Below, piece after piece: positions 26,698-52,300 of a stretch of DNA of 60,000 bases. Position numbers and translations under genes: made by a program. Source of the DNA: Strigamia acuminata (lineage: Eukaryota > Arthropoda > Chilopoda > Geophilomorpha > Linotaeniidae); assembly GCA_949358305.1 (NCBI GenBank), contig OX442315.1, forward strand, positions 10,134,427-10,194,426, written 5' to 3'. The notes under the pieces were generated by a model, which saw only the letters and a program-made list of their open reading frames with translations, was not told the origin of the DNA and made no database searches. The stretch's first letter is position 1. Each line of letters begins with the position of its first letter.

Positions 26698-27691
26698 TGT
26701 GGTGACCCGACTGGGGTGGGGCACGAAGAGTTTCTCTCGTGGCCTACATACGGGTAAAGAGGGGGAGTCGCACGCGCGCCTCCCTTCCCTCAGAGCATTG
26801 ACATCCAGTCAATGGACGGGCGTCTGCCCTGGGGGAGTGGGGGAGATTCGTCTTCCCCACCATTGGGTGGCTTTAGTCACCTGTCACCCCCGCTTTGTGC
26901 AAAGGAATTTGCCTTGCACTGAGCGGGCAGAACCAACACAAACATCAAGCAAGAAACACATGCAAAATCTATCCTCCTACCGATCAGGCCTAAGTCAAGA
27001 ACTAGGAGTGACCCGGGACAAAGGATTCAAATTGCCGTGAGTACGTTTGATTAGTGTTAACCTCCGCAGAGTAACCTGCGAAACAAGATTACCACACTAT
27101 TTTAGCAAGCCAGCTAGAAATAGTAAACCTACTCCAATTTAGCGAGTTGTGCAGACAAACGGTCGCACAAGCCTAAATTGCAGTAACCACGACGAGCGTT
27201 CCCGCCGCTGTGTGTATCGCCGGGAACCACCAAGCGTCCGCCGCTGTGTGATCGCCGGACACCTACACAAAACCCTAAAACCTAGACAACAGCCGAAGTA
27301 AGACCTTTCAGGCATTCACTCGCGCCCGACCAGCGTGAGCCCGAAGGACCGACCGAGAAACGTGAGACGAGGACGCCATTCATTGCCACGCCGGCCCAAG
27401 ACGACACCACGTTGCCACGCGGACGCCATCTTGGATCCAGAGCGCCAACAAAGGACGACCTCGACCAGTTTCCCGCCAACTTCACACACCTTACCTTTTA
27501 CCTTTATTCCCTTACATATTTTATCCCCTTTACCTGTACATTCCCGTATAATAAATACATTTATTATATTTACCATTTTACATTGTTTGCTGTGTCATAT
27601 TCTTTTGGGTAACCGCTTGAGTAAAGCGGTATTACGAGATCAGTAAGTGACTCATACCACGAGTTAGCGACAGACAGAGTTGAGCGCGACA
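26698..27691 (+). repeat. 5' LTR of the 13.3-kb gypsy element
   Basis: Starts TGTGGTGACCCGAC and ends GAGCGCGACA. It contains an ATAATAAATACATTTATTAT block near the 3' end, likely the polyadenylation region. It is close to the right LTR over most of its length, but the block at about 26936-27050 is clearly more diverged. Confidence 0.92.
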
Positions 27692-27693
27692 CG

Positions 27694-27711
27694 TGGGGGC
27701 CTGTTCGGGAT
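27694..27711 (+). other. Primer binding site, tRNA-Pro-like
   Basis: TGGGGGCCTGTTCGGGAT, two bases after the LTR. It differs at a few positions from the well-known tRNA-Pro site. The related element at 58913 has TGGGGGCCCGTCCGGGAT. Confidence 0.7.
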
Positions 27712-27759
27712 CGATTTAAACGACTCGAATAGAACTTGAGATCATTTTCATACCCAAAA

Positions 27760-29586
27760 ATGGCAGACAATATCCGAGCAACGGATTCCGACTCCGACGC
27801 AAACAAGAGAGCCGGTAGCCGTAAAGGCGCCGATTATCATTTGCGATCTGGAGGCCCCTTACCCAAAGCCTCAGCGCACGAAGCGAGGCAAAAACGGCGC
27901 AAGCCTAAACCCGATCGCAGAAGCGCATCAGAGGCATCGCACCCGTCTCACGCCGAGACGAGGCAGCGATCGGACGAGACAGAGCGGGGTGAAGAGCAAT
28001 CTCACTTCAAACTGCCGCGTTCTAACCGTGACGGCGAGACGAGCGGAAACGAGGTTTCATCCCGTAACCAATCGCCTCGTCTAACGCACGACACCGAGGT
28101 GGGCAGTCCGAAAGCGGCGTCTCCAATACAAAAGACGGCCTCAAATACGACAGCTAATTCGGCACTAAACACGCCAATTACGCAAAGCCGCCCAGCTTCG
28201 GTCAGGTCCGGAGGACACAAGTCCAATGCGTCAAATACTGAGCGTGTCCCAAGCCAGCCTTACAGCGTCTCGGCCACGTTAGTTGACACGATGCAGTTGG
28301 CACAGGCAGAAGGTGTACGATACACTCTGCCAACGGGAAAAATAACTGTGTACGAAACGTTACAAATCGTACGTGCAGCTTTAAGAGCGCACAGGTTATC
28401 CCCACAAATCACCATTGTTGAAGACGCCTACGCTCAACAAATGGTAGATTCCGTTCAATTCGAAGCGGATGCCGAGAATGAGGCCCGACAAGCCATCCGC
28501 GAGAGAAAGCGGAAGCTGGCGGAAAGAGAAGCGCGAGCTCTCGAGTACGGCAAATCCCAGCGCGTTCCGACTACTCCAGAAGAAGTCGAAATAGTTGATC
28601 GAGCCTTACATGCACATCGTTATGCATTCCATTCTCAGCAAGAAGCTGAACGAGCTTTCATGGCTAGGCTGCAACGAGACAAACCAAAATCCGTTCGCAA
28701 GCCAGAAATCAGCTCGTCAGAATTGTCCGACGAGAGCGTAGAAGGCGACCCAAAGCGCACGCCGAAGGTCAGCCCCAAACCCGAGCGAAAAAAGGAAGTG
28801 CCAGTCACTCCACGCAAACGGGAAGTCTCGACCGAACAACGCGTTCGACCTCGCATGATGGCGTTAGACGATAACACTAACAACGCTATCAACCAATTAA
28901 TAAATGCGAACAACGCGCGTCGTAACGAAGAACAGACTCACACGAGCCGACAACGCGACGACCCGCGGGGTAGCGACTGGCCACAGCCGGTGCCCATCCT
29001 CAAAGACGACGGACCTTTGAGAAAACATTCCGAAGACCGCACCTCGTCACGAGAGGAACGTCAACGCGAGAGAGGACAGCAACAGTATCACTACGGAAAC
29101 AGTGATTCGTCGTCGGATGGACTGGAGTCAAATGCACCCAGTCATCACGATTCGGAGAGAGGTTCCGGAGAAAGACGAAGGGAGAGAGAACGCGATGAAC
29201 GCAGGGAAAGGGAACGTGACGACCGTCGTAGGGGCCGGAAAGAGTCAAACTCTTCACGGCGCAACCCGCCACGCCGCTCACCGTCTCCCGACCCCAGCTC
29301 CGACCCATCGTCCAACGACGACAGACGGCGTGATAAATCAAATAATCGCCGGAAGAGATCCAACTCTCCGCGCGATAGAGAGAAACGACGTCGATCGGAA
29401 AATGGCGACCACCGACGGGAGGAGTTTCAGGACCTTCCCCGACAAAGCGCGTTTACCGATTCGACGGGTCGACAGTATACGATGGGAGAGCTTGGAAGAG
29501 CCTTGCTTGGCTCGTTAAAAGCCGAGGGAATCGATCTGAGCAAACGAAACGATCGTAATCGTAGTACTGGCGACCGGGAATATTAG
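27760..29586 (+). CDS. Gag, N-terminal part (gypsy element)
   Basis: 608 codons from ATG 27760 (MADNIRATDSDSDANKR; context AAAAATGG). A conserved YHLRSGG lies at residues 26-32, which recurs at the same position in the second element at the window end. The protein is highly charged, with helical Arg/Glu stretches in the middle and an Arg/Ser/Asp-rich segment near residues 470-560 (RERERDERRERERDDRRRG). The frame stops at 29586 just where the canonical retrotransposon Gag core begins in the +1 frame, so this is the N-terminal half of one gag gene interrupted by an indel, or a rare frameshift site within the 68-nt overlap 29519-29586. Confidence 0.75.
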   Translation: MADNIRATDSDSDANKRAGSRKGADYHLRSGGPLPKASAHEARQKRRKPKPDRRSASEASHPSHAETRQRSDETERGEEQSHFKLPRSNRDGETSGNEVSSRNQSPRLTHDTEVGSPKAASPIQKTASNTTANSALNTPITQSRPASVRSGGHKSNASNTERVPSQPYSVSATLVDTMQLAQAEGVRYTLPTGKITVYETLQIVRAALRAHRLSPQITIVEDAYAQQMVDSVQFEADAENEARQAIRERKRKLAEREARALEYGKSQRVPTTPEEVEIVDRALHAHRYAFHSQQEAERAFMARLQRDKPKSVRKPEISSSELSDESVEGDPKRTPKVSPKPERKKEVPVTPRKREVSTEQRVRPRMMALDDNTNNAINQLINANNARRNEEQTHTSRQRDDPRGSDWPQPVPILKDDGPLRKHSEDRTSSREERQRERGQQQYHYGNSDSSSDGLESNAPSHHDSERGSGERRRERERDERRERERDDRRRGRKESNSSRRNPPRRSPSPDPSSDPSSNDDRRRDKSNNRRKRSNSPRDREKRRRSENGDHRREEFQDLPRQSAFTDSTGRQYTMGELGRALLGSLKAEGIDLSKRNDRNRSTGDREY

Positions 29587-30790
29587 GTGGCAATTTTATA
29601 TTCAGAACCGTTTCGACGGGTCATGGAAAGCGGGAGATCGCTTCCTTGACGAAGTAATTCGGATTAAGACTGCCACTAAAGCCACCGTAGGAGACATGCT
29701 CACCCACGGTATTGTCGAGCTGATGACAGGCTCGGCACGTGAGTGGTACCAAGGATTGAAAGGCGTCAGTTGGGACGACTTTTTAATGAGATTCGACCTA
29801 CGCTACGGCGAGACACCCGAAGAGGTGAGCCGGAAGATGCGAGGTCTTCGCCAGATGCCTGGTGAAACCATAATGGATTACGACATTCGCGCCAGATTGT
29901 TGTTCGAAAAGGCCCCGATGGAATTTCATGCCACGGGATTCAACCTTTTCTTTCTCGGCGGTTTGTCGGAGTACTCGCAACGGGTGCTACTAGAAGAAAG
30001 GGCACCGACAGGAGGCAGCTACGAAGAAATGAGCGCCTTCCTGTTCGAGAACACGATAGATATCGAGAAGAGATACTATTCCGCTTTACCAGAAGCGGAG
30101 AAAGCAGCAACCGCTAACCGTCTCAAGTTGAGTGCGGAAAGATATGGGGCGACAGACAAAATCATGCGCCCTACTGAATATCTTAGCGGTATAATGGAGC
30201 TGGCAGAAGCTAGCGTTGGTTTGCAAATAAAAAATAAACTGACATCCACGCTGCCTTCCAACCCTTTGGCCGCCCCTAAAAAGGCACCGACAGCGTCAGC
30301 CATGCAAGCGACACTGGAGGAGGTCAAGGAGGGGGAGGAAGCCGGACAAGATGCCGGAAAATCAGACGAAAAAGAAGAAAAAGACGATTATTCGACGGAC
30401 GAAGAAATACGAAGCTATCGCGATACCTTATCAATGGGTTGCGATGAAGAAGGACCGCTAGTGCATCTCATCCATCGAGATAGAGCGGTAGAAGAATTTC
30501 GCGCCAGGTTAAAACCAAATGCCGGCCGAATTCCGAAGTATTTTCGAAAAAATTACACGCCACCGTCGAAAGCAGACCCTGAAAAGAAGAAATCGATTGA
30601 AGCCCCAAGAGACAAATCAAATATTCGCTGCTTCAAGTGTAACCAACCGGGCCACTACTCCAATGAGTGCCCAAGAACAGCGAAAGAAGACGCTAAGTTT
30701 GACACGATAATGAAGCAGATGGCAGAGATTAAACTCGCCATGGCTAAAAACGAGTCAAAAAACGAGTCAGCGCAGGCGGCGAAGAAATAA
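29585..30790 (+). CDS. Gag core and nucleocapsid (gypsy element)
   Basis: The frame begins in homologous sequence RWQFYIQNRFDGSW (first ATG at 29696) and carries the retrotransposon Gag core (SAREWYQGL, then FDLRYGETPEEVSRKMRGLR, then FFLGGL). An acidic hinge follows, and one canonical CCHC knuckle CFKCNQPGHYSNEC at 30629-30670 binds RNA. It ends in a Lys/Ser-rich tail. It lies 24 nt upstream of the pol ATG and in a different frame, so pol would need frameshifting or reinitiation. Confidence 0.85.
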   Translation, partial: RWQFYIQNRFDGSWKAGDRFLDEVIRIKTATKATVGDMLTHGIVELMTGSAREWYQGLKGVSWDDFLMRFDLRYGETPEEVSRKMRGLRQMPGETIMDYDIRARLLFEKAPMEFHATGFNLFFLGGLSEYSQRVLLEERAPTGGSYEEMSAFLFENTIDIEKRYYSALPEAEKAATANRLKLSAERYGATDKIMRPTEYLSGIMELAEASVGLQIKNKLTSTLPSNPLAAPKKAPTASAMQATLEEVKEGEEAGQDAGKSDEKEEKDDYSTDEEIRSYRDTLSMGCDEEGPLVHLIHRDRAVEEFRARLKPNAGRIPKYFRKNYTPPSKADPEKKKSIEAPRDKSNIRCFKCNQPGHYSNECPRTAKEDAKFDTIMKQMAEIKLAMAKNESKNESAQAAKK

Positions 30791-30813
30791 CTTCTCGACC
30801 GTCTGCGCCACTC

Positions 30814-31857
30814 ATGAAGAAGAAGGGGTTCAACAAAGGGTTCGATAAGCCGCCACCAGTCAAAGAAATGGGTAGTGACATAGCTAACGCCCAGATCCAA
30901 GACAGAGCCAACGCTTTGCAGGTTATTACCGCAAATGCTGAGGCTAAAGCGGAAGAACCGAACCTACTGCTTGAAGAATTACCTCAAGTAGTCGAAGAAG
31001 AGACAGAAGAATTTCGTGTCTTCATGTGCAACGTGTCGGTTGAGAACACCAGCCGCCTATGCATGTTGCCCATGACCATAGAACGTGAGAAAATTATGGG
31101 ACTGCTAGACTCGGGAGCAGATCGTTCGTTCGTTTCCGAAGATATAGTAGAATCATTGGGTCTCACCGATACAATAAAAGGCGTAAATAAGAATGTACGT
31201 CTTAAAACCGCAAACGGATTGGCGCGTCCAAAAGGGGTTGTATTGCTGACCATGGAGTGGATCGGAAGGGTTGAGCAACACCCTTTCCTGGTTCTGCCCA
31301 CGTGCGACAGAATTTTCCTGTTGGGCCTAGACCTCATGGCAATAATGGAAATACAACCAAATCCAATAACAAAATCTTGGAATTATATCAGAAATGATAA
31401 GGAAAGACCCGCAATTGTCGTGCCACCAGCTCTTGTAAAAGAAGCGGCCGACAAGACACAGTGGGAGAAAGGCCTAAAGAAATTCGTTCAAGACTACGAC
31501 TTTAAAGCATTCGTAGCAGAATTGCAACGGGACAATGTAGTGGAAACGCTTGTCGCCGACGCCGCTTTAGAATTAAATGAAGCGGCAGCCCTACGAAGGG
31601 TCCTACTTAAATATGAGGGGATTCTGTCGAAAAAACCGGGCCGAACGAATAGGGCTATTCACGAAATTAAATTGACGGATAATAAACCTATACGAGTTGC
31701 GTATAAGAGAATGAACCCGCAAAAACGTGAAATAGTGCAAAAAATGTGCAAAGAAATGCTGGACAACGGTATTGTCTCCGAGGCCCAGGGAGAATACGCG
31801 ACGCGAGTTGTGCTCGTGATGCGCCCGGGCTCGGATCCGCGTCTATGCATTGATTAG
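30814..31857 (+). CDS. Pol: protease and start of RT (gypsy element)
   Basis: 347 codons. The retropepsin active site is LLDSGADRSFV, with the catalytic Asp at residue 99, and the second signature IFLLGLDLM follows. RT begins in the last 80 residues (IRVAYKRMNPQKREIVQK, then DNGIVSEAQGEYATRVVLV). The frame is ended by a TAG (31855-31857) inside the conserved CID-x-RPLN motif, where an aromatic codon is usual, and the same frame continues at once. This is one nonsense change in a single pol gene. Confidence 0.88.
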   Translation: MKKKGFNKGFDKPPPVKEMGSDIANAQIQDRANALQVITANAEAKAEEPNLLLEELPQVVEEETEEFRVFMCNVSVENTSRLCMLPMTIEREKIMGLLDSGADRSFVSEDIVESLGLTDTIKGVNKNVRLKTANGLARPKGVVLLTMEWIGRVEQHPFLVLPTCDRIFLLGLDLMAIMEIQPNPITKSWNYIRNDKERPAIVVPPALVKEAADKTQWEKGLKKFVQDYDFKAFVAELQRDNVVETLVADAALELNEAAALRRVLLKYEGILSKKPGRTNRAIHEIKLTDNKPIRVAYKRMNPQKREIVQKMCKEMLDNGIVSEAQGEYATRVVLVMRPGSDPRLCID

Positions 31858-33564
31858 CGCCCATTAAACGCGGTGACGGAGATAGATCCCATACAGATGC
31901 CGTCTATCGAATCCATTTTGAGAGAGCTTAGCCCCTTTTCTTGGGTTACGACGATGGATCTGTCAAAGGGATACTGGCAAGTAGAAATGAGGCCAGAGGA
32001 TAAACTAAAGACAGCATTTTACTCGCCAATTGGACGGTTGATGTTCAACGTCATGCCGTTTGGTTTAGTGAATGCTCCCAGTACCTTTCAGAGACTAATC
32101 GAAAGCGTATTGGGTGATATCCTACATCAGTTTGTGTGGGCATACCTAGATGACATAGTTATTGCCTCAAAAACATTCGAAGAGCACATTGAGCACATCG
32201 ACCAAGTGCTCACCCGGCTGGCAAAGGCTGGGTTGCATGTACATCCAGGAAAAAGCAAATTTTGCCGTAAAGAATTAGCTTTCCTGGGTTATCGCATTGG
32301 TGTCAACGGGTTAGCAATTGGCCCCGAGAAAATTGATGCGATTCATCGTTTTCCACCCCCCGAAGATGTTAAGGGGGTTCAGAGGTTTATGGGGATGATA
32401 AACTTCTTCGGCAGACTCTTACCGGGTCTTGCTGAGGTCGCAGCTCCAATAACCGACCTCCTGAAAACTGAAATGGAGTTCGAGTGGACAAACGAGTGTG
32501 ACATCGCATTTAATGCGATAAAGAGGATGTTGACAGAAGTGGGAGTCATGCCTCTACCCGACTTAAACCGGCCGTTCATATTACATACGGACGCCAGCAG
32601 AGTTGGGTTGGGAGCCGCATTGCTCCAAACACACGTGCGCGACGGAGTCGAACAAGACCTGCCGTGCATGTTTATAAGTCGCAAACTCCAAGGCGCTGAA
32701 AAAAATTACAACGCCACAGAGTTGGAGTGTTTGGCAGTTGTGTGGGCTATAAGGAAATTCAGAGATTATCTCGAATATACCAAATTTGTAGTCCACACAG
32801 ATCATCAAGCGTTACAATGGCTGATGAAATTAAAGGAGCCAGCTGGTCGACTAGCCAGATGGCAGTTAGAACTAATGGCATGCGACTTGACCATTCAATA
32901 CAAGCCCGGCAAATATAACGTCGTGGCTGACGCTCTGTCACGAGCACCAGTGTCAGATCCTATCGACGCTGACGATGATGGCGAGGATGATTCCCGCATC
33001 ATTTACTGCCCAACGAGTTGTCACCGTTGGGATTTAAGGAAAATGAATGAAATTCCTACCGCGTCTCCAGCAGATGTAAAATTCTGTGGATTCTGGACGC
33101 GGTTATACCAACCCGCTGCGAACAATTACCCAGATGCAAAGAAGGAATTTAAGCTAGAACAGAGAATAAATGACCCGCTTCTAAGCACCTTCCACGCTCA
33201 TGTCGGCAAGCAAATGCAAAGCAATCCCCCGACAAGGGAGGAAATAATTGTGCAACAAAAATTAGACAAAAAATGTCAGGACAGAGCTAGATTCGTACTG
33301 ACGGGAAAATATCCGCCCAATCTGACCAGAAGGCAGAAGCGCCGTTATGCACACGAATCCATAGATTACCTATTGGATGACGGCCTTTTGGTGAAACATC
33401 ACCCAAATCACCAAGATGACTTGAGTGAAGCAGACACCGCAGTAAAGGTAGTAATACCTGCCTCCTTAATTGGTCGTATACTGTGGTTGTTACACGGGCA
33501 CCCGCTTGCTAGCCATGCGGGAGTAAGCAGAACACTACACAGCTTTTTCACTGGACAGGGATGA
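31858..33564 (+). CDS. Pol: RT and RNase H (gypsy element)
   Basis: Same frame as the preceding protease, from RPLNAVTEIDPI. RT motifs are complete: TMDLSKGYWQVEM (first catalytic Asp), MPFGLVNAPSTFQRL, and YLDD at 32143-32154. RNase H follows with HTDASRVGLGAAL, ELECLAVVWAI, HTDHQALQW and VADALSRAP, so all four acidic residues are kept. A linker leads to the integrase zinc domain (HPLASHAG). The frame stops at 33564 where integrase continues in another frame (one base lost near 33550). Apart from the flanking lesions this would be an active enzyme. Confidence 0.92.
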   Translation, partial: RPLNAVTEIDPIQMPSIESILRELSPFSWVTTMDLSKGYWQVEMRPEDKLKTAFYSPIGRLMFNVMPFGLVNAPSTFQRLIESVLGDILHQFVWAYLDDIVIASKTFEEHIEHIDQVLTRLAKAGLHVHPGKSKFCRKELAFLGYRIGVNGLAIGPEKIDAIHRFPPPEDVKGVQRFMGMINFFGRLLPGLAEVAAPITDLLKTEMEFEWTNECDIAFNAIKRMLTEVGVMPLPDLNRPFILHTDASRVGLGAALLQTHVRDGVEQDLPCMFISRKLQGAEKNYNATELECLAVVWAIRKFRDYLEYTKFVVHTDHQALQWLMKLKEPAGRLARWQLELMACDLTIQYKPGKYNVVADALSRAPVSDPIDADDDGEDDSRIIYCPTSCHRWDLRKMNEIPTASPADVKFCGFWTRLYQPAANNYPDAKKEFKLEQRINDPLLSTFHAHVGKQMQSNPPTREEIIVQQKLDKKCQDRARFVLTGKYPPNLTRRQKRRYAHESIDYLLDDGLLVKHHPNHQDDLSEADTAVKVVIPASLIGRILWLLHGHPLASHAGVSRTLHSFFTGQG

Positions 33565-34874
33565 AAAAAGATATTGCTCTTTTTGTCCACCAATGTCAGC
33601 GATGTCAAGCGTGCAAGCCAAGGAGTAAATCACCATTCGAAACTATTTTCTTAGGCCCTTACGCGCCTTTTGATTGTTTAAGTGTCGATGTGATGGGCCC
33701 AAAACCCGTTACGGGAAATAAAAACGCGTACATTATCGTAATAATGGACGTGGCGACTCGTTGGCCCGAGTTGTACGCCGTCGCGAGACCTTCAGCAGAA
33801 AAAATCGTTGAATGTATCTACGACGTGGCGTTACGTTACGGACTTCCACGTAAAATAATATCCGATAACGGACCCCAATTTATCTCGAAAATTTGGGGTA
33901 AGTTTTGTGAGAAATTCGGGATTGTGGCGTCACATACTTCGACCTACAATCCCAGAACAAATCCCGTTGAGCGACTCAACAGGGACATTAAATATGCACT
34001 AAGCATATTCACTGACATCCACAATAGGTGGGATGAATACTTGAGGGAGATCGCGTTCAGCATACGAACGACGGTCTCAAGGACGAGAGATTTTTCTCCG
34101 GCCTACCTCAACTTTGCCCGAGAGCTACGAGTGCCTTGGGACCCACGAGTGGCAGAGTCGGTAAATGTAGTGGACCCTGAGAAACCACATGAGTACGTGT
34201 ATAAATTGGAACAAACAATTTCGAGCACATACAAGCATATGATGGCGCAAATTTTTAACATGCGCGACCGCATTTTACAAGATAAAAGCGGTGGAAAATT
34301 TGTGAATTTCGAGATCAATGATTTGGTGTGGAAAGATACACACATCCTCTCAAATGCAGCGAGAGGAATTACCGCCAGCTTGGCCGACAAAAGAGACGGT
34401 CCGTATGTGATCATCGGCAAGCATGGCGGTAACGCATATAAATTGCGTAAGCTCGAGGATAATACCGAGCATAAATCGATCCAAGTACGAGAGTTAACTC
34501 CGTACATTCCGGAATTCCCGCAAGAAATGTGGGCCAAGGGCCAAGTCAAGTCCAAAACTGACGGCCAAATCGTCGATATGTTCGCTGGCGAGTCGGAAAA
34601 AGCACCGCCAAGCGACAACGAGGAGTATTTCGACGCCCCTTCACCTCCGGTAAACGAGATCGTTGAATCCGTTCCAGATCCAATTTTGGTCGGGGGGGAA
34701 ACAGGAGAAACTCCTGAAACAAACACAAAAAACACGGATAAAAAAGAAAAGAAACATGAGGAGGTACAGACACAAAAAACAACAAAAAATATCGTACCTG
34801 TCTCAGCCCATCACCTGCGGCCCCGTAGAAGTAATCTGTTTATAAAAGACGGAAAGGTCGTAGGAAAGGAGTAG
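33561..34874 (+). CDS. Pol: integrase (gypsy element)
   Basis: Begins MKKDIALFVHQCQRCQACK, the CC half of the HHCC zinc module; the histidines are at the end of the previous frame. The DDE core is visible: Asp in DCLSVDVMGP, Asp in KIISDNGPQF, Glu in NPVERLNRD. C-terminally there is a GPY/F-type module (RDGPYVIIGKHGGNAYKL) and a charged, low-complexity tail (KNTDKKEKKHEEVQ). No chromodomain is seen. Confidence 0.92.
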   Translation: MKKDIALFVHQCQRCQACKPRSKSPFETIFLGPYAPFDCLSVDVMGPKPVTGNKNAYIIVIMDVATRWPELYAVARPSAEKIVECIYDVALRYGLPRKIISDNGPQFISKIWGKFCEKFGIVASHTSTYNPRTNPVERLNRDIKYALSIFTDIHNRWDEYLREIAFSIRTTVSRTRDFSPAYLNFARELRVPWDPRVAESVNVVDPEKPHEYVYKLEQTISSTYKHMMAQIFNMRDRILQDKSGGKFVNFEINDLVWKDTHILSNAARGITASLADKRDGPYVIIGKHGGNAYKLRKLEDNTEHKSIQVRELTPYIPEFPQEMWAKGQVKSKTDGQIVDMFAGESEKAPPSDNEEYFDAPSPPVNEIVESVPDPILVGGETGETPETNTKNTDKKEKKHEEVQTQKTTKNIVPVSAHHLRPRRSNLFIKDGKVVGKE

Positions 34875-35349
34875 AAAACGTTACGAGTCGATGGCGACGC
34901 TGAAAATAAAAAATTGATCGATCGACAGCGCTAGCCATCAAAATCCGAGACTCTGAAAAAATTTCGCTAAGTCCAACAAGCGATATCGGTCGAATTCACG
35001 TCACAAGATGGCGTGGAAGCGCGGGACCCGTAGCAAAATTATCGGCATGGGTCGGATACCGCGTGCAAAGGACCCCGTAGCAGCAATCGCGCACGGGAGT
35101 AGAAACAAAGGAGCCCCGTAGCGTAACATGCGCACGGCTGCTGCGCACAAGTCATAAACACCTGGTTCTGGAGTAAATTACCCAGAACCCACCACGATAG
35201 CCTCGTTTTCACCCGGACTTCCGCTAAATCAGCTGATCGTCGTCCACACGTGATACACTTCGCGTTTGTTTCAAACCGAGTTTTTTATCCAATTTACGAG
35301 GAGTTTTAATCATTTTTATCGTGGTCTGACTGAACGCGCAATCCTCACG
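34875..35349 (+). other. Region between pol and ORF3 with a repeated CCCGTAGC word
   Basis: Non-coding, GC-rich. The word CCCGTAGC occurs three times (35027, 35074, 35115) in similar surroundings rich in GCGCAC/GTGCGC. It may be an RNA structure or splice control region upstream of the ORF3 exon; the function is unknown. Confidence 0.35.
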
Positions 35350-38300
35350 ATGGCTGAGGAAGGAGGGGACGAGGAAATGCTTGAAATAGAGCATAATGCG
35401 GACGAAAACTGGGACCAGGACGTTAATATGGTTCCACCCGATCAGGTAGTAGTCGGCATCGGCGCACGAGACTCAGCTCCGTGCTGTTGAATAAAATATT
35501 ATGTTTGACTAATACCTGACATGAACGCTCTGCGTTCGCAATAGTGTATAATTGATGTATTAATATCCACGATCGCGAGAGCGATTGTTTTTTCTCCCTA
35601 TTGTTTGTTTTCAAGGACGCGATCGCAGACTCAATGTCGCCTCGCTCCTTGAAAATGACTCACGACGATGTGAACGTGACAAAGGAAACGAGCTTCTTTT
35701 ATATTTCCAAGAATGGGAATAATTTAGCAAACAGATTATTAAATAATTTATAGGACTTTAATTCCTACTTTGCATTCGTCATTTTGTTCGTGAATTTTCT
35801 CCGATGATTCTGATCAGATTCGCTTTTAAATTCGATTTTACTTCCGAATTTTGGGAATAGTTTTAGACAAATTTATTTTTACGATTAATTTACGAAGAGA
35901 ACATTTATTTACATGTTCTCTATTGTCATTTGGGATTTTTACGAACGATTTCGCGAATTTATTTGTTTAATACGTATATACAATTTAATTTTAAATTAAA
36001 TAATCCGAAGAGAATTTCCGGATTAATATGCTCGATTCCGTCGCGTAGCTATCATTGGACGTGAGCCAGATGTGCCAAGAAGACTCTTTTCTTCCTGACA
36101 AGGACGAATCAATGAACAGGAATCGGACTCGACGAACGGCCGCACATTTTGGCGACGTTCCTCGAGCCCACCCTTATTTATCTCCGTGTTATTGGCAATG
36201 TTAGTAATTATTTTGTTTTCCATCATTGCAGATGGAGCTCCGGAACACGTGGGGAGCGCTCAGCCCCGCATGCATTGTGCGGGCCGGCATTTATCGAGGC
36301 GTCTTGCCCGATTTTCTCCGCCGTTGTTTTGGCAGTGATGCCAATCCATATCGCATTCGCGTATTATTTTCGCGCGCCCTCGCCAAGCGATGGGTAGGTG
36401 ACTGCTCTCTCCTGGATGCATTTCCGGAGTCGGTTCGAGCTGTTGTCGCTGCAGAGTTAGCTCGCAGCGACGACCCAAAGTCGCCAATCTTCCACTCGGC
36501 CCTGTCGAGCCAATACTCCGGCAGGCCAGTGGAGGAACATGTATTGTTCGCGTGGCAAGCGGCCGAGACCGAGGAGGCCCGCGAAGAAGTGTACCAACAC
36601 TACCGCCAGCAGCTAATCGACACTGCGCCGGCGGTTGCAGAGCGTGTCTTGCAGGACGAAGGCATGAGTACCGCAGACATACATCTATGGTGCGAGCAGA
36701 TTCGGCGAGGAGAAGTTACGCCACAGTGGCGACCGAGAATGGGGATTCTCACGTCACAAGCCGAAATGTGGCAGTTACATTATTTGGGAATTCTCGGTCC
36801 CAAATATAATTTCCCACGAAAGCGCAAGCGCTCCAAGGGAACCGGGGGCAGCGAATCGCGTTCCCCGGGTCGGTCGAAGAAACAGTGCGTCGAAAGGCAC
36901 TCGACCGTAAACGATGGAGCCGGAACGTCAGCGCAGCCACCGCGCGACTCCGCGAATTACACCAGACCAAGGGTGTTTGTCAACCGTCAGATGAAAGACG
37001 GTAAGGAGACGAGAGAGGTGTGGATCTCGGGCGACGAAGAGCGAGTCTCTCGTCCCCGTGCCGGCAGACGTCCGCTGACTCATCGCGAGCAGCGGAAACA
37101 AGACCGCAAAGAGCGGTATTTCGCTCGCTGCGAAGCGCGGGGAATTCCCCTTCCCGAACACGCTCTCAAAGCAATCGAAGCGAAGGAAGCAAGAGAGGCA
37201 CGATCGAAGTCGAGTGGCAGATCTTCCGGGGAGCGTCGCGTCCTAGCGCCAGACACGCGGGACCTTCGCGAGATCATCACTCAGATGAAACGCAAGAAAT
37301 TGTCGCGTTTCGACCCCGCGATGCAGCACGCCCGCAAGATGGGCATCGTCGAGGATGGTACCGTGATTCCACACGAAGTGGCACGGTGGTTGAGCGAATA
37401 TGTGAATTCGCGACCCACGGCCGTCGTTCCGCCGACGAGCACCGTTACGCCCGCTCCGGCGCCTCAAGTCACGGCGACTGAGGTGCAAGCGATGCTGCCG
37501 TTGCCGGCACAGCAGACATTGACGCTGCCGCCGCCGACGCAGCCTCCGCCTCCGCCGCCGCCGCCGCCGATGCCAGGTTCGAGCACTACGCCGGACTTGG
37601 CCGTCGACGACTGTGCGGGAATGCCATAACGCCCGGCCGGAGAATACTACCCGAGCACGGCAAGACACGACCGCACAGCGATGTGGTATGAACAGCGTGA
37701 CGAAAACGCACGGCTAGCTCGAGAAGCAGCCAATCCATCGGTCGAAGAGCTCTTAGCCTTCTCATTCGTGATGGAGGACCCGAGAGCCGCCGCCGCTGCT
37801 CTGCAGGGCGCCGACGTCACTCAGCGCCATTTCATCGAGTGGGGAATTTCGATGATGCGACATCACTCGCGTGCGTTCGCTGAGGATTCCGACCGCAGCA
37901 ATCCAGTAAACCGCCGTCGTCTGCAGCTGGCCTTGACCGAAATCATGGTCCAGCTGTTAACCCCTTCGCTCTTTGGGGTCGGGCGACAGGCGATGGCCTG
38001 CTGGTCCGTCGTAGACCGAGAAGGTGTACAGGTACCTCGTGCACTTGTTGGGGAATGGAGCGCCATTCTCCCCAACCCGGCGATGACTCGATTCGAGCTG
38101 ACCCGGGACGTGGTGAACCCCGAATGGGAGGGGTACAAGTTGCGGAGCATGGCCTTCCGCCACGCCGTTACCACGTGGGCACCAACACCGTCATCGCAAC
38201 CATGCGCGATGATGGTTACGAGTGAGGAGCCGATGGAGAGCGACACCGCCTCTTCGGCTGCCTCACGTGGAGCCCCGACTCCACCACCGCCGCCGCCACC

Positions 38301-38976
38301 GATGCCACCAGCGGCGGCACCACAGACACCCGTCCTATCAAATGCGGCGGGTAAGCCGAGACGCTTGTTATGTCGGACGCCACCAACGCTGTCCGCCGCT
38401 CGTCAGAGCCTGACGCCTCCCGCTGCCCAACAAGCGCGAGAAGAGACGGTCAAGCAGGCGGTAGTTCCGAAGAGCGCCAAGCCAGCGAAAGCGGCGAAGC
38501 CTCAGACGAACTATTATGAGAAGTTATGTGACGAGTTCTCTCAACTGTCGATGACGACAGCAACGCGGAAGTTCATCCTCGCTCAGAGAGACAATGGGAA
38601 ATCGGTTTTCGTTTGGTTGCACAACCAGGTGCGCCAGACCACCGATTTGATCCTCCATCAGCGTTTGCTGAGGGCCCACCGTGCGCCTCGAACGGCCGCG
38701 GAAGCGAATGCGATCCGGCACACCAATTCCGGGTTTTCGGCATTCATTCCGCGGGTTTGGCTGCACGAGAGGAGACGTGCCCCGTATGAGCCCGCCGGCG
38801 GCCACGAATTGTGCTTCATTTCAGAGCACGAGGACCCCCGCAACCAGTCTTCGGCCTTGGTTGGAGATCTGGTTTTGCCGCCCGGCGTTGTGCCGCCCGG
38901 CGCTGAGCCGCCCGTCCCTGGAGTGAGTTTCGCCCAGGCGATGGATCCAGCGTCGGGTTCCAGCAAGAAGGATTGA
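35350..38976 (+). CDS. ORF3: unknown extra protein of the gypsy element (spliced, one in-frame stop)
   Basis: Located after integrase, where retrovirus-like elements carry env, but with no signal peptide or membrane span. The proposed first exon is 35350-35445 (MAEEGGDEEMLEIEHNADEN, 32 codons) with donor CAG followed by GTAGTA. The intron is 35446-36231, ending TTTTCCATCATTGCAG. The second exon starts with ATG 36232 (MELRNTWGALSPACIVRAG), and the phase is 0 on both sides. The frame reaches a TAA at 37627-37629 and then continues open in the same frame through 37681 (MWYEQRDENARL) to 38976, giving roughly 945 residues without the stop. Features: a nuclear-signal-like PRKRKRSK, long Arg-rich segments, two proline runs (near 37540 and 38280) and a conserved C-terminal region with two VWLH boxes and LLRAHRAP. 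A homologous region exists at 48518-48985. No family is recognised. Confidence 0.7.
35446..36231 (+). other. Putative intron of ORF3 (786 bp)
   Basis: GT-AG bounded, AT-rich from 35650, and ends with a clear pyrimidine tract and CAG. It joins two in-phase frames. Splicing is inferred, not shown. Confidence 0.5.
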
Positions 38977-39001
38977 TCGCTCCGAACACGCGCGGTCAGA
39001 G

Positions 39002-39015
39002 CTGGGAGGGGGACG
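39002..39015 (+). other. Polypurine tract
   Basis: CTGGGAGGGGGACG, directly against the right LTR. This is the plus-strand primer site of the gypsy element. Confidence 0.75.
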
Positions 39016-40007
39016 TGTGGTGACCCGACTGGGGTGGGGCACGAAGAGTTTCTCTCGTGGCCTACATACGGGTAAAGAAGGGGAGTCGCACGCGCGCCTC
39101 CCTTCCCTCAGAGCATTGACATCCAGTCAATGGACGGGCGTCTGCCCTGGGGGAGTGGGGGAGATTCGTCTTCTCCACCATTGGGTGGCTTTAGTCACCT
39201 GTCACCCCCCGCTTTGTGCAAAGGAATTTGCCTTGCACTGAGCGGGCAGAACCAACACAAAAATCAACCAAGATACACGTAAAAGCCAAACGTCCTAAAA
39301 CGATCAAGCCTAAGTACAAAGACTTCAGGAGTGACCTAGGACAAGGGACTTCCAACGTGAGTACGATTGATTTGTGTTAACCTCCGCAGAGTAACCTGCG
39401 AAATAAGATTACCACACTATTTTAGCAAGCCAGCTAGAAATAGTAAACCTACTCCAATTTAGCGAGTTGTGCAGACAAACGGTCGCACAAGCCTAAATTG
39501 CAGTAACCACGACGAGCGTTCCCGCCGCTGTGTGTTTCGCCGGGAACCACCAAGCGTCCGCCGCTGTGTGATCGCCGGACACCTAAACAAAACCCTAAAA
39601 CCTAGACAACAGCCGAAGTAAGACCTTTTAGGCATTCACTCGCGCCCGACCAGCGTGAGCCCGAAGGACCGACCAGGAAACGAGAGACGAGGACGCCATT
39701 CATTGCCACGCCGGCCCAAGACAACACCACGTTGCCACGCGGACGCCATCTTGGATCCACAGCGACAAAGGACGACCTCGACCAGTTTCCCGCCAACTTC
39801 ACACACCTTTCCTTTTACCTTTATTCCTTTACATATTTTATCCCTTTTAACTGTACATTCCCGTATAATAAATACATTTATTATATTTACCATTTTACAT
39901 TGTTTGCCGTCTCACATTCTTTGGGTAACCGCTTGATTAAAGCGGTATTGCGAGATTAGAGAGTGACTCATACCACGTATCAGCGACAGACCGAGTTGAG
40001 CGCGACA
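39016..40007 (+). repeat. 3' LTR of the 13.3-kb gypsy element
   Basis: Matches 26698-27691 and ends GAGCGCGACA. It has several small indels relative to the left copy and one strongly diverged block after AGCGGGCAGAACCAACACAA. Confidence 0.92.
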
Positions 40008-40043
40008 CATTGTCATATGGGAGTTGTGGTCGTCACCGTCACA
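40008..40043 (+). repeat. End fragment of the 9.4-kb element's LTR family
   Basis: CATTGTCATATGGGAGTTGT and the following GGTCGTCACCGTCACA repeat the last 36 bp of the 1,910-bp LTRs with a few changes. It is not followed by that element's primer site. The gypsy element is therefore joined directly to an LTR remnant of another family. Confidence 0.8.
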
Positions 40044-40537: not shown

Positions 40538-40680
40538 ACCACTGCACTGCAATATCGGTATTAGCCAAAAGAAAGAACTGAGTTCACTTTATTGACGTCA
40601 ACAAAGTAATAATTTTAATGTTTTTTCCATTTTTTTTCTGTTTTTTTTTTTTCTTTTTTTTCAATTTCTGTTTTAACAAG

Positions 40681-40853
40681 TAAAAATCATATAAAAAGAA
40701 GTACAAACCAAATAAAAAGACGTAGAAATCAAATAAAAAGACGTAGAAATCAAATAAAAAGACGTAGAAATCAAATAAAAAGACGTAGAAATCAAATAAA
40801 AAGACGTAGAAATCAAATAAAAAGACGTAGAAATCAAATAAAAAGACGTAAAA
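40681..40853. repeat. 21-bp tandem repeat
   Basis: About eight copies of GTAGAAATCAAATAAAAAGAC, the central six almost exact. It is open when translated on the minus strand only because 21 is a multiple of three. Confidence 0.9.
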
Positions 40854-40974
40854 AGCACACAAGAAAAAGTTAAAATCACCTAACAAAGTGAAAATCACTT
40901 ATTATCAAATGAAAATGACCTAACATAGTGTGAAAATCACCTAAAAACAAGTAACAACATATAAAAGCAGTAAA

Positions 40975-41622: not shown

Positions 41623-41765
41623 GTTGACATTGTACGGTTATAAAAAGCCACTTTACATTGCATGTTTTTCACTGAGAAATATTCATTGCATCAACTTGAG
41701 TGTCTCTACAACAATTTTCAATTTGCTGCTGTCCTTCGAGCTGACAAAGAGAACGAGTTTAGAGG

Positions 41766-44275
41766 ATGACTACTACGATCAATTCTGTGGGACTGTGGAC
41801 TGCACACAAGCGGCTCAAAGTCACTAATACTACTGACACTAGTCTGCCAAGCATTAGAAAGATGCTGGATCCCAATTACAACTTTTTCTTCAAGGTGCTT
41901 TGGGTTGTTGCAATTATCACTTGTGCTGGTCTTTGCTTCTATCATACAGGCTCAAGGATTCAATACTACCTTCAGGAGCCTACCGCTGTCAAGGTGGAGA
42001 TGGAGCCGTTGACTACGGGCACATTTCCGTCTGTTGTGCTCTGCTCGAGTGAGTTGGAAAACGTAATGAAAAAGCATCACAAGCAACTTTTAATATGCAA
42101 AAAAAACGTATCAGCTTGTAAAGCCTTGTTCGAAGAATGGACAACTCCTTTTGAACAGAAGAATACTACTATGGAAAAAGAGATTGAAGTTCTCAGTGGA
42201 TTTAACCCCACTGCGCTTAAATTTAGTTATCGTGTAAGTACCAAGAAATATTTAAGTACTTTGCACTCATCTTATATGTAAAACGTCCCAAGCAGGGCTA
42301 GTAGGCTGGGAACAAATTTATCACTGGGATATGTGGATAGGTTGGGCCATGGGGACAAATTTCTGATGGAAAATATGGATAGGTTGGACCACAGGAAATG
42401 AATTGAAATTCCCGCTGTCTCACCGGGCCAGCCAGCACTGGTTCCATGTAATTTTGTAGCAAAATTATTTCTTTTGTTTTTGTTTGATTTTAGCACCATT
42501 AATGTCATTAATTAATTAATCATTTGCAAGCGTAAAGCCATTAGTTACTAGGACCACTCCTATCTTAAACCTTGGTTAGCTTGTTTCATTGAGGAAAAAA
42601 TAGGCTAATAAAATTGTAGCTAACTTGTTCAACATTTTGTGGATATGTGTTTGTAATTCAGGATTTATTGCAGGGTCTCTTATTTTCTCAACAAAGTAAA
42701 GTTTATAATGGAGTAGCAGTGAAAACTAAAATGAAAATAGAGAAGTTGGACACCATTTGGGGTCATTGCCTAGTTCTTACTTTGAGTAAGTTTTAATAGA
42801 ATTCTCTTATAAATGGATAGTTTATTATTGCTATTCTTTGCATACCGGTATAGAAAATAAAACGGAATACAGGGCACCTGCTAACTGGATTTTGCTGAGT
42901 TGGGATAATGCCACATTCTCCCAGTCTCCTGTACAGGACATGAAATTATCAACTGAGTATTATGTAGGTGTATAAATCAAAAGTTTTGAAGTAAGCAAAC
43001 ACACAACATTTTTATATATCGTTTAGTTTTTTCTTCAAGAAAGTGAATCATATCTTTCTAGACATGATGCTATTTACTTAGCTAACACTCTTGAGTTAGG
43101 TTATGAAAGAGTGGTGAGAATTACAGCTCATAAGGTAAGCTATGCAATTATGTATCTAACAACGAAAAGTAAACATCTTTACTTGCAATTTTGCAGTTCC
43201 GTGTTTTAAATTCTAAGAAGCGGCCATGCACCGACGACTTGTCATCCGTTAAATGCTTTGACTCATTCGTGGACAATCTACTTGCCAAAAACTTAGGTTG
43301 TCAGTAAGTTTTGCACGTAGACTTAACTATTGGGTCAAAAGGGCCGTAGCTCAGGGGTACCACATGCCAAAGAGCGCCAGGCTTCGAATGATATAACCGT
43401 TCTCTAACAGAATCACAATGGACAATGGGCAGCTTATTGCGGTTTTCTACAATAAAAATGTGATGTCGCAAGAAAAACAAACTCGTTTTGGGTTTTGCAC
43501 AACTTGCCACAAAACGGGCGCCATGTTTAATCATCCAGCGTCAAGATTACAAGACTGGGTTTGAGACTATTTAATCTCATTCCCATCCCATACAAGTGAA
43601 GAGGACAAATTTTTGCAATGATGATTTGTCCTCACAACTCAAAGAAAACAAAATCTAGGATTTACTATGAACTATCACAAAAACAACAAAAACAAAATGA
43701 TGAATAGTTCATACATTACACAAAACACAAGCCAATTATTAAGTAAGTCAACATTAACACAATAAATGAATACCTACTGTATATGGCAAATGTTTAACAT
43801 TAAGGTGGGTTAACACTTGTACATGCAGTAATTAATCGGTTTTGGGCAAAGTGTATAATTCCAATTTTGTTCTGATTTGATAAATCAATCTGTTTACAGA
43901 ATTCCACTTTTGAAGTCAGGAAACGTGGCCTCATGTCCCAATCTCGAGCTAACATTCGATGCATTTGCAAGCTCTTATTTGGTATACTGGTCACTGAAAT
44001 CTTCGTCGGGCAGCTGTATTCGCAGATGTGAGCAAATCATTTACAAAATGACTGTTGGTGGCATGGTGAAAGCGAAGGACAATCAGACCAAACTCAAGCT
44101 CGTATATTATGATGACACCATAGAAGTACGAAAGGAGTTTAATATATTTTCTTTATCAGAACTAGTTTCTGAAATTGGTGGATTGGTTAGCTTGTTCTTG
44201 GGCATATGCTTTTTCACTGTGTTTGGAAGATTTGAAAATTTGGCAACACGGTTTATTCGTAGTTGCTCTCATTAA
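41766..44275 (+). CDS. DEG/ENaC-family sodium channel, complete six-exon gene
   Basis: An amiloride-sensitive-type cation channel subunit of the plasma membrane. Exons by splice signals and phase: 41766-42233, 42674-42785, 42854-42963, 43027-43134, 43197-43303 and 43900-44275, together 427 codons including TAA. Every intron is GT-AG, and donors include GTAAGT three times. TM1 is about residues 41-60 (FFKVLWVVAIITCAGLCFYH), followed by the family motif TFPSVVLCS. The Cys-rich outer domain contains RPCTDD, KCFDSF, LGCQIP, ASCPNL and SCIRRC. The pre-TM2 region is SELVSEIGGLVSLFLG, then TM2 and a very short C-tail. The selectivity position usually G/S-x-S reads GIC. At 426 aa it is short for the family (often 500-700). 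AATAAA at 44404 is a likely polyadenylation signal. It is a paralogue of the minus-strand exon at 5175-5717. Confidence 0.92.
43341..43400 (+). repeat. tRNA-derived SINE head inside intron 5 of the channel gene
   Basis: GGGCCGTAGCTCAGGGGTAC provides box A (TAGCTCAGGGGTA) and GGCTTCGAATG provides a box B-like element about 20 bp further on. The spacing is too short for a tRNA gene. Intron 5 is 596 bp while most of the other introns are 60-70 bp, consistent with an insertion here. Confidence 0.5.
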
Positions 44276-47732: not shown

Positions 47733-48985
47733 TGCTGCGATCCGGGTTTTATTTGAATATCTTCTAATAAAACACTCAAATTACTGCAGGTGAATGCTAC
47801 GATGAGACTTATATCGTTGCGGCCTGAAATGTCTAGGGTAATTTAAGAGGAAAGAAAAAACAGTTTTTTCTATAAAAACACACAATATACTATATTTATT
47901 AATGTAATTATACAATGATATATATGAATAATAATACATAATAAATGGTATGCAATGGGAAAGGCGAGCAGCGATTGTTACACGCGAAAAAGCACGGAGA
48001 ATGGCTTGCTTAATAACTACAGTTGTTATGAAGACGGCGACAGTCTTCTTCACACTCACGCGTACGATGGTCCTAGGACGATGGTTCACGGCGAGATCGA
48101 TCTCGGTACGATGGCGTTGGCGAGCTTTCCCACGCTCGCAATGGCGGTGGTTCACGTTGAGTCCAACTTCTTCCACACACGACGAAACAGTGTAAATTAG
48201 CTACGGCTAATTTACACGAACGCAATGAAAGCTGTTCTTACACGTTTGGTGCAAGAAATAAAGCAGTGTCTCGTATCACAATACAATTTACACTATCAGA
48301 CAACCTGGGGTGAGATGTGCCTAGGGAAGTTTTCTCCCCTTGGTCACATGCTCTGACTTGGCGTGTGCCAAGCCAAATTAATTAGGAGACAAAATAAATT
48401 TATCTCCTAAGTGGTGAAATACTTTGAGATCACCACACTTCCCCCCATTTAAGACGAATCCTACCTGGGGAAAAATGGACAAACCCAATTTAGGATTCAT
48501 CCATACTCTGAGTCTTCTCAGGCGTCATTAGGCGCATCATGTCCGTCGAACGGATTCAGACGCTCATTTATAGTGCACAGGTCTCGGCCTGCGCACGGCC
48601 CGGCACTCATACCAGGGTTGACATGCAGCCACACCTGGAGAATTCTACAGGCGTTCACCGTGTTGGCAAACCCCATTTCTGCAAATTCGATTGGACTTGT
48701 TGGCGCCACTCGGGCACGCAGCAGCCAGTGATGGAGCATTGTGGGTGGCTCCAACACTCTGATATGGTCCTCTAACCACTGGAGCACTCAAGCTGTGAGT
48801 TGGCTGTCGTTGCACAGCACTGTCCTGGTGTCAGGGGTAAGATGAAAATGAGGGTAGATCCTCACTAGCTTCTTAAAAGCTGATTCCTTCTTTGGCTTCG
48901 ATCCTGCCTCGATTAGCTCTGACAGTGGCGATGGAGGCGGTGGAGTCTCTTCGAATGCTGGCGACTTTGCAGACTCGGCTGGTTC
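47733..48985 (-). mobile_element. Truncated retroelement: ORF3 end, polypurine tract and 3' LTR, minus strand
   Basis: Read on the minus strand: coding sequence for the end of an ORF3 homologue, then polypurine AAATGGGGGGAAG (48450-48438), then an LTR (48437-47733) starting TGTGGTGATCTCAAAG and ending ACCCGGATCGCAGCA. The upstream part of the element is missing; it is cut at about 48985 where a minisatellite starts. Confidence 0.75.
48518..48985 (-). pseudogene. ORF3 homologue, C-terminal fragment
   Basis: Minus-strand reading with a Pro/Ser-rich stretch (EETPPPPSPLSELIE) followed by a region that aligns with the end of ORF3 at about 38560-38840. Shared positions include WL spaced from LLRA, AP, E, N and VWLH, then LC-x-I-x-E. 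The alignment is gapless over the first 22 residues up to the first W-L and needs one gap after it. There is one in-frame TGA (48788-48790) in the middle. After the homology the frame ends at 48518, not far upstream of the polypurine tract. The function is unknown. Confidence 0.7.
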
Positions 48986-49347
48986 CTAACCTTTCCTTAA
49001 CCTCACCTTTGCTTAACCTCACCTTTCCTTAACCTAACCTTAGCTTAACCTAACCTTAGCTTAACCTAACCTTTGCTTAACCTAACCTTTGCTTAACCTA
49101 ACCTTTGCTTAACCTAACCTTAGCTTAACCTAACCTTAGCTTAACCTAACCTTTGCTTAACCTCACCTTTGCTTAACCTCACCTTTCCTTAACCTCACAT
49201 TTGCTTAACCTCACCTTTCCTTAACCTCACCTTTGCTTAACCTAACCTTTGCTTAACCTCACCTTTGCTTAACCTAACCTTAGCTTAACCTAACCTTTGC
49301 TTAACCTCACCTTTTCTTAACCTATCCTTTGCTTAACCTAACCTTTC
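48985..49347. repeat. 16-bp minisatellite related to the arthropod telomere repeat
   Basis: About 22 copies of TTAACCTAACCTTTGC with variants (CTCACC for CTAACC, TAGC for TTGC). Each unit includes CCTAA, the complement of TTAGG. Confidence 0.9.
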
Positions 49348-49351
49348 TTAA

Positions 49352-49959
49352 CCCTCAGATGGCCAACCTCCAAAGACGACACTTTGGTGCCATAATGCAC
49401 CAAATTTGGGACAAAATAATTAAATCCGGAAGGCCGTTAGCTTAAGCGCTGTTAGGGTAATGCGAAAAATTGTCGCACTTGGCGCTACTGTTGTTGAAAT
49501 TAATTTTAAGCCAAGAAAATTAATTTTAAGTGAAAAAGTTTAATTTATCCTAAAAAATTTAATTCTAAATGAAAAAGTTTAATTTGTCCTAAAATATTTA
49601 ATTTTAAATGTATATTTTAGCCAGAAATGGAACCGTAATAATACCGTAATCACATGTGTTGGACTACTAGCGCCACACGGTGTCTGCTGATAAAAATTGG
49701 AAGCACTAAGTGGAAGCGCTTTTAAAAAATTGGGAGAAGCCAACTTAAATTTAAGCTGGAATTTCTAAGGGGCAGAATTTTCAAAGGTGAATAAATAAAT
49801 AAATAATGTTCAGAACACTCCAATTTTTTTTTTAAACAAACATTATTGTTGTGTGAACAAAGTCAGAAATTTTTAGAAAATTATATTAAACCAAAAAAAA
49901 GTTTTCCTATTCAAGAAGAGTGTTGTCCCAAAATTGGTACATTGTTGCCCATCTGAGGG
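49352..49959. mobile_element. piggyBac-type MITE (608 bp)
   Basis: Ends CCCTCAGATGGCCAACCTCC and, inverted, CCCTCAGATGGGCAACAATG. Both sides are flanked by TTAA (49348-49351 and 49960-49963), the diagnostic target of piggyBac elements. Inner similarity continues for about 45 bp. No transposase. It inserted into the minisatellite, part of which continues after it. Confidence 0.8.
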
Positions 49960-49963
49960 TTAA

Positions 49964-52300
49964 ACCTAATATTTCCTTAACTTAATATATCGTTAACCTT
50001 TAAGAAAAATACAATTTTCACTGGATAATGCATTTTTTTCTCTCGGAAATGAATTTTTTTTCACATAAAAATGCATTTTTCACTCGGATTTCACTTGAAT
50101 ACTCGTTTTTTTCTCGAGGGAATGCATTTTGTATTTGGATTTTACTTGAAAATACATTTTTCCACTTGCATTTCATTTGAAAATGCATTTTTCCAATTGA
50201 ATTTCACTTGAAAACACATTTTTTCGTGAAAGTGCATTTTGCCACTCAAATTTGATCTTGAAAATACATTTTTTCTCGTGAAAATGCATTTTTCCAATTG
50301 AATTTCACTTGAAAACGCACCTACCTACCTTTCGGCTTCGTTATGTTATTTGATTACTCATTTGTTCGGATAAATGGAAATGACGAAATGGCGCCCGAGC
50401 GAGCTTTGAGGAAGGAAGACGGTTATTATTCCACTCAAATTTTCAATTTCAAATGTAACTAATGCAATAAAAACTTGTTTTGATCCATTATACAAGATTC
50501 AATTCTCAGTGATGTAACGTTGTAATTATAATGAATAATCTAATAAACATCTCGAACTCCTGGCGTGAAATGCAATGTGTCAAAATGTGTCAAAATCGAT
50601 TAAAATGTCATGTGAAACCTGGCAAAATCTATCCAAATTTCACAAAATGTACGGAAAAGTCTTGAAAGCAATCAAGATTAATTCAATAAATAAATGAACC
50701 TAAGAACAACAAACCTTAAGAACCTAACCTTTCCTAACCTTTCCTAACATTTTATTAACCAAATATTTTCTAAATCTAATGTTTACTTAACCTTTAAGAA
50801 AGGTGCATTCCATTTTTTCTTCTGGAAATGCATTTTTTTCACTTGGATTTCACACAACAACTCTTTTTTTTCTCGTGAAAATGCTTTTTTTCACATGAAT
50901 TTCACGTAAAAACAATTTTTCTCGAGTAAATGCATTTTTTTCACTGGAATTTCGATTGAAAACTCATTTAGTTGTCGTGAAAATGCATTTTTCGCTTGAA
51001 TCACGCTTGAAAATGCATTTTTTCACCTGTATTTCACTAGAAAGCATTTTTTTCACTTAAAAATATTTTTTGTTCTCGTGAAAGTGCATTTTGTCACTTG
51101 AACTTCACTTGAAAATGCTTTATTTCACAATAGAATTTCACGTGAAAACAAACTCATTTTTCTCGTAAAAAAGCCATTTTTTTCACAGGAATTCCACTTG
51201 AAAACTCATTTTTTCCTCGTGAAAGTTCATTTTGTCACTTGAACTTGATTTAAAAATGCATTTTTTCTCGCGAAAATTGATTTTTTTCACGTGAAAATGT
51301 ATTTTGTCATTTGAATTGTACTTGAAAACACATTTTTACTCGAGAAAATGGATTTTTTTCACTGGAATTTTACTTAAAAGCTAATTTTTTTCTCGTCAAA
51401 GTGCATTTTGTCACTTGAACTTGATTTGAAAATGCATCTCTCAACCTAATTATGTCATTTGAATATTCATTTTTGCGGATAAATAGAAATGGCGAAATGG
51501 CGAAATGGCGAAATGGCGAAATGGCAAAATGGCGAAATGGCGAAATGGCGAAATGGCGCCCGAGCGAGCTTTGAGGAAGACGGTTATTATTCAAAATCAA
51601 ATTTTCAATTTCAAATGTAACAAGGTATTAACTAAATGCAATAAAAACTGGTTTCAATCCATTTCGATTCAATTCTCAGTGATGTAACGTTGTAATTGTA
51701 ATGTAATAATTTAATAAACATCTCGAACAACTAACTACCGGTACTGGCTGATCGCACGAAAATGTCGTGAAATGCTACGCGTCAAAAATGTGTCAAGATG
51801 TTGAAAATCGATTAAAATGTGATGTGAAATTGGCAAATTTGATCTACCCAAATTTCACAAAATGTACGGAAATGTCTTGAAATCATTCAAGATTAATTCA
51901 ATAAACTCTGTCAAAATGAAGGAAGGAAATTTCCGAGCGTGCTCGTGAACGAAATGTCATAAAATCGAGCAAAAATATCGCAACTTATGCATGTTATTCG
52001 ATTACTCACTCACTCGCTCATTCGCTCATTTTTCCGGATATACCTCATTTTATTTGACGGATAAGAAAATTGGCATCAGAAACCACGCCATTTTGCTTGT
52101 TTGCTCATTTCGCCGGGAAAACGGAAAACACGAAACGGCAACTGATAACGGCGACGTGGGGAAATGGCTCCCGAATTCTACTTTCTCTTTCAAATTTGCC
52201 AAGGTAATTAAGAATAGGAATAAATGAATAATTATGAGTAAAATTTCATTCCATTCAATTGAATTGAATTGAATTTAATTTAATTTAATTCTCAGTGTTA
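49964..52300. repeat. Degenerate tandem array and a larger duplicated unit
   Basis: Two levels of repetition. Short: degenerate units of about 35-60 bp built of AAAATGCATTTTT, CACTTGAATTTCACTTGAAAA and TTTCTCGTGAAA (50030-50330 and 50815-51440). Long: the block from GGCGCCCGAGCGAGCTTTGA to AATAAACATCTCGAAC occurs at 50389-50556 and 51556-51727, and a weaker third version ends near 52300. No gene is seen. Confidence 0.75.
51489..51560. repeat. 9-bp tandem repeat
   Basis: Eight copies of GAAATGGCG, one with a base change, directly upstream of the duplicated GGCGCCCGAGCGAGC block. The first duplicate has only one or two copies, so this expansion came after the duplication. Confidence 0.9.

Follow-up and report, generated by a model that had tools for sequence, protein, structure and literature searches.

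A large gene in the env position of a Ty3/gypsy lineage of Strigamia acuminata is very probably a spliced accessory gene rather than an envelope

LTR retrotransposons are usually seen as gag-pol machines, and env is the best known addition to them in insects. A stretch of 60,000 nucleotides from the 237.5 Mb genome of Strigamia acuminata (the window) raises the question of what else can stand in the env position, as an element there carries a large gene, ORF3, 3' of integrase and in sense orientation. The element spans about 26698-40008 and is called family A here; it is assigned to the Ty3/gypsy LTR retrotransposons because it has a pair of LTRs and, in this order, gag, protease, reverse transcriptase (RT), RNase H and integrase domains. 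Its parts outside ORF3 are the following.

26698..27692, + strand: 5' LTR, a direct repeat with 39016-40008 in blocks 90-99% identical; ends approximate
27760..30787, + strand: gag region, from open reading frames and Pfam PF03732 and PF00098
30748..34871, + strand: pol (protease, reverse transcriptase, RNase H, integrase), from open reading frames and Pfam PF13650, PF00078, PF17917, PF00665 and PF17921
39016..40008, + strand: 3' LTR, from the repeat alignment with the 5' LTR; ends approximate

In the window copy gag occupies two overlapping frames, the second of which holds the zinc knuckle and Retrotrans_gag, and the gag and pol frames are both interrupted in the list of open reading frames. 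Beyond the element, a 21-nt direct repeat array (40633-40926) lies a few hundred bases 3' of the 3' LTR, open frames at 41763-44275 appear to resemble an amiloride-sensitive sodium channel, and two GAAATGGC-type repeat blocks stand within AT-rich repeats at 50369-51579.

ORF3 had originally been predicted as a single open region from 35350 to 38976, coding about 945 residues if one TAA is ignored. The length holds, being made up of 32 codons of exon 1 and 465 plus 448 codons of exon 2; the single region does not, as an intron divides it.

35350..35445, + strand: ORF3 exon 1, 32 acidic codons; the exact exon-exon junction is found in one intronless genomic copy
35446..36231, + strand: ORF3 intron, 786 nt, phase 0, GT...AG, 37% GC; donor and acceptor motifs recur across family A copies
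36232..38976, + strand: ORF3 exon 2; TAA at 37627-37629 in the window copy, other family A copies open throughout

The intron starts with GTAGTA, ends with ATCATTGCAG and contains 18 stops in the frame of exon 1, and its GC content contrasts with the 61% of exon 2. The donor motif is kept in all 13 family A copies that have exon 1 and the acceptor motif in 11 of them; the latter is absent from L053 and L058 within the sequence stretch examined. Between the window copy and the intact family A copy L049, exon 1 is 88% identical and does not stand out from the intron (86%) or the stretch upstream (89%), while exon 2 is 92% identical. Exon 2 of family A itself starts with ATG, and exon 1 is therefore not strictly required in this family.

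A related family, B, has a similar layout, in which a 66-nt intron 1 precedes an exon 1 of 30 codons and a 274-nt intron 2 follows it, the latter with the same position and phase as the family A intron. The first Met of family B exon 2 is residue 242 and exon 1 provides an ATG, so that the joined exon 1 very likely supplies the start. One family B copy, L069 (G000:C1:26202401-26206900), has an internal deletion that places gag and ORF3 exon 2 in a single frame of 1271 codons, with pol absent.

The genome itself holds copies from which these introns have been removed. Searches with junction patterns found intronless copies for the family A intron (one), for family B intron 2 (four) and for family B intron 1 (four), and the reversed patterns matched nothing in the same genome. 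Both family B introns are missing in L064, L065 and L067, and only intron 2 in L066. The family B copy at C1:63982119 is without intron 1 and seems to retain intron 2, since it is not among the copies that lack intron 2 and a frame of 761 residues is present there. Intron-bearing copies are far commoner. The family A donor pattern occurs at 157 genomic places within two mismatches (control, 0), and of the 80 matches to the family B intron 1 pattern (control, 1) 72 were judged element copies, 68 with and four without the intron, the other eight being unrelated. Splicing in vivo is thus shown in both families. Because most copies seen retain introns that the cell is able to remove, intron-bearing RNA is the usual template. 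The intronless copies continue unbroken into the end of integrase upstream, so the spliced RNA extended into pol; they prove splicing but, being derived from RNA that reaches pol, say nothing about which mRNA serves for translation or where the ORF3 mRNA begins. By eye, the leaders of families A and B offered no clear donor. The 5' LTR of the window copy has, near its end, a GTAAGT, which recurs in one (L022) of the 13 family A 3' LTRs listed.

ORF3 is a real protein gene under purifying selection with many intact copies. When the second half of ORF3 was used to search the genome, 94 scored matches emerged from 2243 candidates; for family A, 83 of the 94 fall within frames that are 900 codons long or longer, and four have a stop inside the match. 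A real, selected protein had been predicted, to be judged by whether dN/dS lay near 1. The median was 0.149 in family A (range 0.082-0.241) and 0.158 in family B (115 of 120 pairs). The family A values come from 12 of 21 copies, giving 66 pairs, of which 65 showed 10 or more synonymous differences; the nine copies left out were the window copy (L009) and others in which the frame was broken or truncated or the stretch contained no start. In four family A pairs the true frame gave 0.11-0.20, against 1.1-5.4 in shifted frames whose stop codons were skipped. Over all family A pairs pN/pS falls to 0.03 in block 826-900 and to 0.07-0.08 in 526-675, with a maximum of 0.37 in block 376-450, and two C-terminal blocks of family B reach 0.00-0.02. 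The window copy taken by itself, with its stop in ORF3 and its interrupted gag and pol, might suggest an open frame that is chance or decayed sequence, but the many intact copies, dN/dS near 0.15 and shifted-frame controls above 1 refute that reading, to which we assign a negligible probability.

The C-terminal domain ties ORF3 to relatives beyond family A.

38506..38856, + strand: ORF3 C-terminal conserved domain, common to family B and the fragment 48521-48787
48521..48985, - strand: fragment of the ORF3 C-terminal region from another relative; TGA at 48788-48790
47733..48437, - strand: LTR-like stretch after the fragment, which starts with TGTGGTGA as the family A LTR and ends with CGGATCGCAGCA as family B LTRs

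The likeness between ORF3 and the minus-strand fragment, originally noticed by eye, is borne out by BLASTP of 48521-48787 against the window copy (E 7e-10). The domain scores 149 against intact family B, where the maximum of 1000 shuffles was 50, and the profile-profile comparison of families A and B, proposed as a check for similarity above chance, gave a probability of 96.5 and E 8e-10. The homology of this domain in the two families is sure; in RT/RNase H they are 52% identical. For the other parts the real score was reached by 1 (N-terminal), 46 (middle) and 201 (linker) of 1000 shuffles. The fragment 48521-48985 is not itself family B and appears to belong to a third family, as its best matches elsewhere are 78% (L030) and 70% (family B) identical. 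A 16-bp tandem repeat array (48905-49421) overlaps and adjoins the upstream end of the fragment and may mark its break.

Composition and searches give an outline of the protein. It has arginine/proline linkers, a PRKRKRSK stretch and an acidic exon 1, and its cysteine content is 1.2% in family A and 0.8% in family B. ORF3 matched no Pfam or NCBIfam family, and at E <= 5 Pfam gave none in L049, L050 or L026, TRP28 (PF04195) included. PHROGs returned one weak match, to a family of unknown function (E 0.053), and the best PDB sequence match was to designed Pizza proteins (E 0.052). In a set of 5.8 billion proteins no homologue was found at E <= 0.001 among 7998 scored candidates for an intact family B query and 7993 for family A; the worth of this search is limited because scoring is confined to the candidates with the most words in common, and these may, we guess, be crowded by poly-proline words. 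The same set contains some arthropod sequence, since an RT control found arthropod proteins, with Dermacentor variabilis (49%) as the best named match. In IMG/VR, 43 stretches matched a pattern and none encoded a relative, and Rfam gave two matches in the family B interval, both far below the cut-off. The structure model of full exon 2 is helical at low confidence (mean pLDDT 36.6); that of the C-terminal 120 residues reached pLDDT 61.7 and pTM 0.56, and Foldseek returned nothing at E <= 0.001 (best E 4.8 in PDB and 4.2 in BFVD).

These features bear on what kind of gene ORF3 is. If it were an envelope gene, so diverged that the obvious features are gone, this would explain the env position, the sense orientation and the splicing, the last of which insect endogenous retrovirus (ERV) env shares (PMC12992720). 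However, the predicted lack of a membrane span is confirmed, with zero 19-residue windows at Kyte-Doolittle 1.6 or above in exon 2 of L049 and of the family B copy L050; exon 1 is acidic and forms no signal peptide, and the arginine- and proline-rich linkers look unlike an ectodomain. ORF3 is unlikely to be an envelope, and the divergent form of that idea is very improbable. ORF3 might instead be a structural partner of Gag, such as a capsid or RNA packaging factor, and not a regulator. Its basic and proline-rich linkers, the low-confidence helical predictions, the strong constraint and the gag-ORF3 fusion in one family B copy agree with this, but that fused copy has no pol and perhaps reflects a chance deletion, and ORF3 shows no similarity to the gag of family A or B at E <= 0.1; a Gag partner is thus possible but rather unlikely. 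The same absence of gag similarity, along with a gene-like exon-intron layout that in family B includes an intron before the start codon, would suit a host gene captured introns included and retained as cargo or helper. Capture through RNA usually removes introns, no host relative was found in the limited protein searches, and the divergence of families A and B means that any capture would be old. Host capture is likewise unlikely, at about the level of a Gag partner.

The reading preferred here is that ORF3 is a real spliced accessory gene and not env-like, which we hold with high confidence. The original conclusion, that a gypsy lineage has an accessory protein here, withstands both the profile-profile and the dN/dS comparison; the introns, the evidence of splicing and the many intact copies had no part in the reasoning behind it. 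As a working model, ORF3 would serve a Ty3/gypsy lineage as a functional accessory gene of several exons, in which a short acidic exon is spliced to a large one. The large exon would encode one domain at the N terminus and another in the middle, along with linkers rich in proline and arginine, and a C-terminal domain, some 120 residues long, that is highly constrained. The protein would be translated from a spliced subgenomic mRNA, arising either from a separate promoter that lies between integrase and exon 1 or from a 5' splice not found here. The product may be a soluble, probably nuclear regulator of element RNA or host silencing, and not an envelope. Taken as a whole, this statement seems to us somewhat probable.

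Its parts differ in strength. Composition, the low-confidence helical prediction and placement fit a soluble accessory factor, perhaps nuclear, the nuclear location being suggested by composition only; a nuclear or nucleic-acid role is plausible and is put forward tentatively. Two CRE-like TGACGTCA sites lie between integrase and exon 1 of L050 (523-586), a number reached in one of 200 shuffles, and none was found in the matching family A interval; the family B sites are a weak hint of a promoter. Retention of introns in most copies could be explained by a protein favouring unspliced RNA; a simpler explanation is that the germ line splices weakly, and control of unspliced RNA in particular by ORF3 is doubtful. 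Equally doubtful is the fuller proposal that a gypsy lineage without recognisable envelope evolved a circuit like that of complex retroviruses, with a multi-exon regulator, its own promoter, and a protein that decides between splicing into regulator mRNA and the intron-bearing genome.

Here a high-copy lineage retains, under strong selection, a large gene without env features, the splicing of which is recorded by the genome itself. The lineage is a convenient system in which to study why introns that a retroelement could shed are kept, and what the element gains from an accessory protein.

No sequence match of ORF3 to a named family was found, and no element like this one is described in the titles and abstract openings that searches of open-licence literature returned, which is weak evidence of novelty. 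ORF3 shares features with insect ERV env, the additional ORFs of plants, Burro and Penelope-like elements. The env of errantiviruses (ZAM, gypsy) is likewise a Ty3/gypsy sense gene between integrase and the 3' LTR and a product of splicing (PMC12992720). In insect ERVs the splice to env starts at exons that precede gag, at an AU dinucleotide or at a site inside gag (PMC12992720), whereas the introns of ORF3 lie inside or just before the gene, and ORF3 has no membrane span in the one copy of each family tested. The additional ORFs of plants (Grande, Retand TRP28, env-like Bagy2) occupy the same place between pol and the 3' LTR, are kept in most copies and may encode a nuclear regulator (PMC7264820, PMC11963269). 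The protein of one of them is reportedly located in the nucleus, its gene having a separate promoter (work cited in PMC11963269). They belong to another lineage, and the plant nuclear examples are antisense (PMC7264820, PMC11963269) while ORF3 is sense; ORF3 also differs in its local introns, its intronless retrocopies and the absence of a TRP28 domain by Pfam. The giant gypsy-like Burro elements of planarians also have accessory ORFs, but theirs lies upstream and has a recognised MATH domain (PMC6431247), whereas ORF3 follows integrase and has no recognised domain. Copies of Penelope-like elements likewise retain spliceosomal introns (PMC3846280); here the element is an LTR element with integrase and the introns are those of an accessory gene. 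In contrast to Penelope-like elements, intronless copies here reveal a template that is sometimes spliced. In complex retroviruses, Tat/Rev and Tax/Rex are accessory proteins made from joined coding exons, and the genome must also travel unspliced. ORF3 resembles them in having more than one coding exon, in splicing in vivo, seen as intronless copies at exact junctions, and in a genome that must also travel unspliced; it is far larger, and the likeness drawn here is one of gene layout and not of homology or of an RNA response element.
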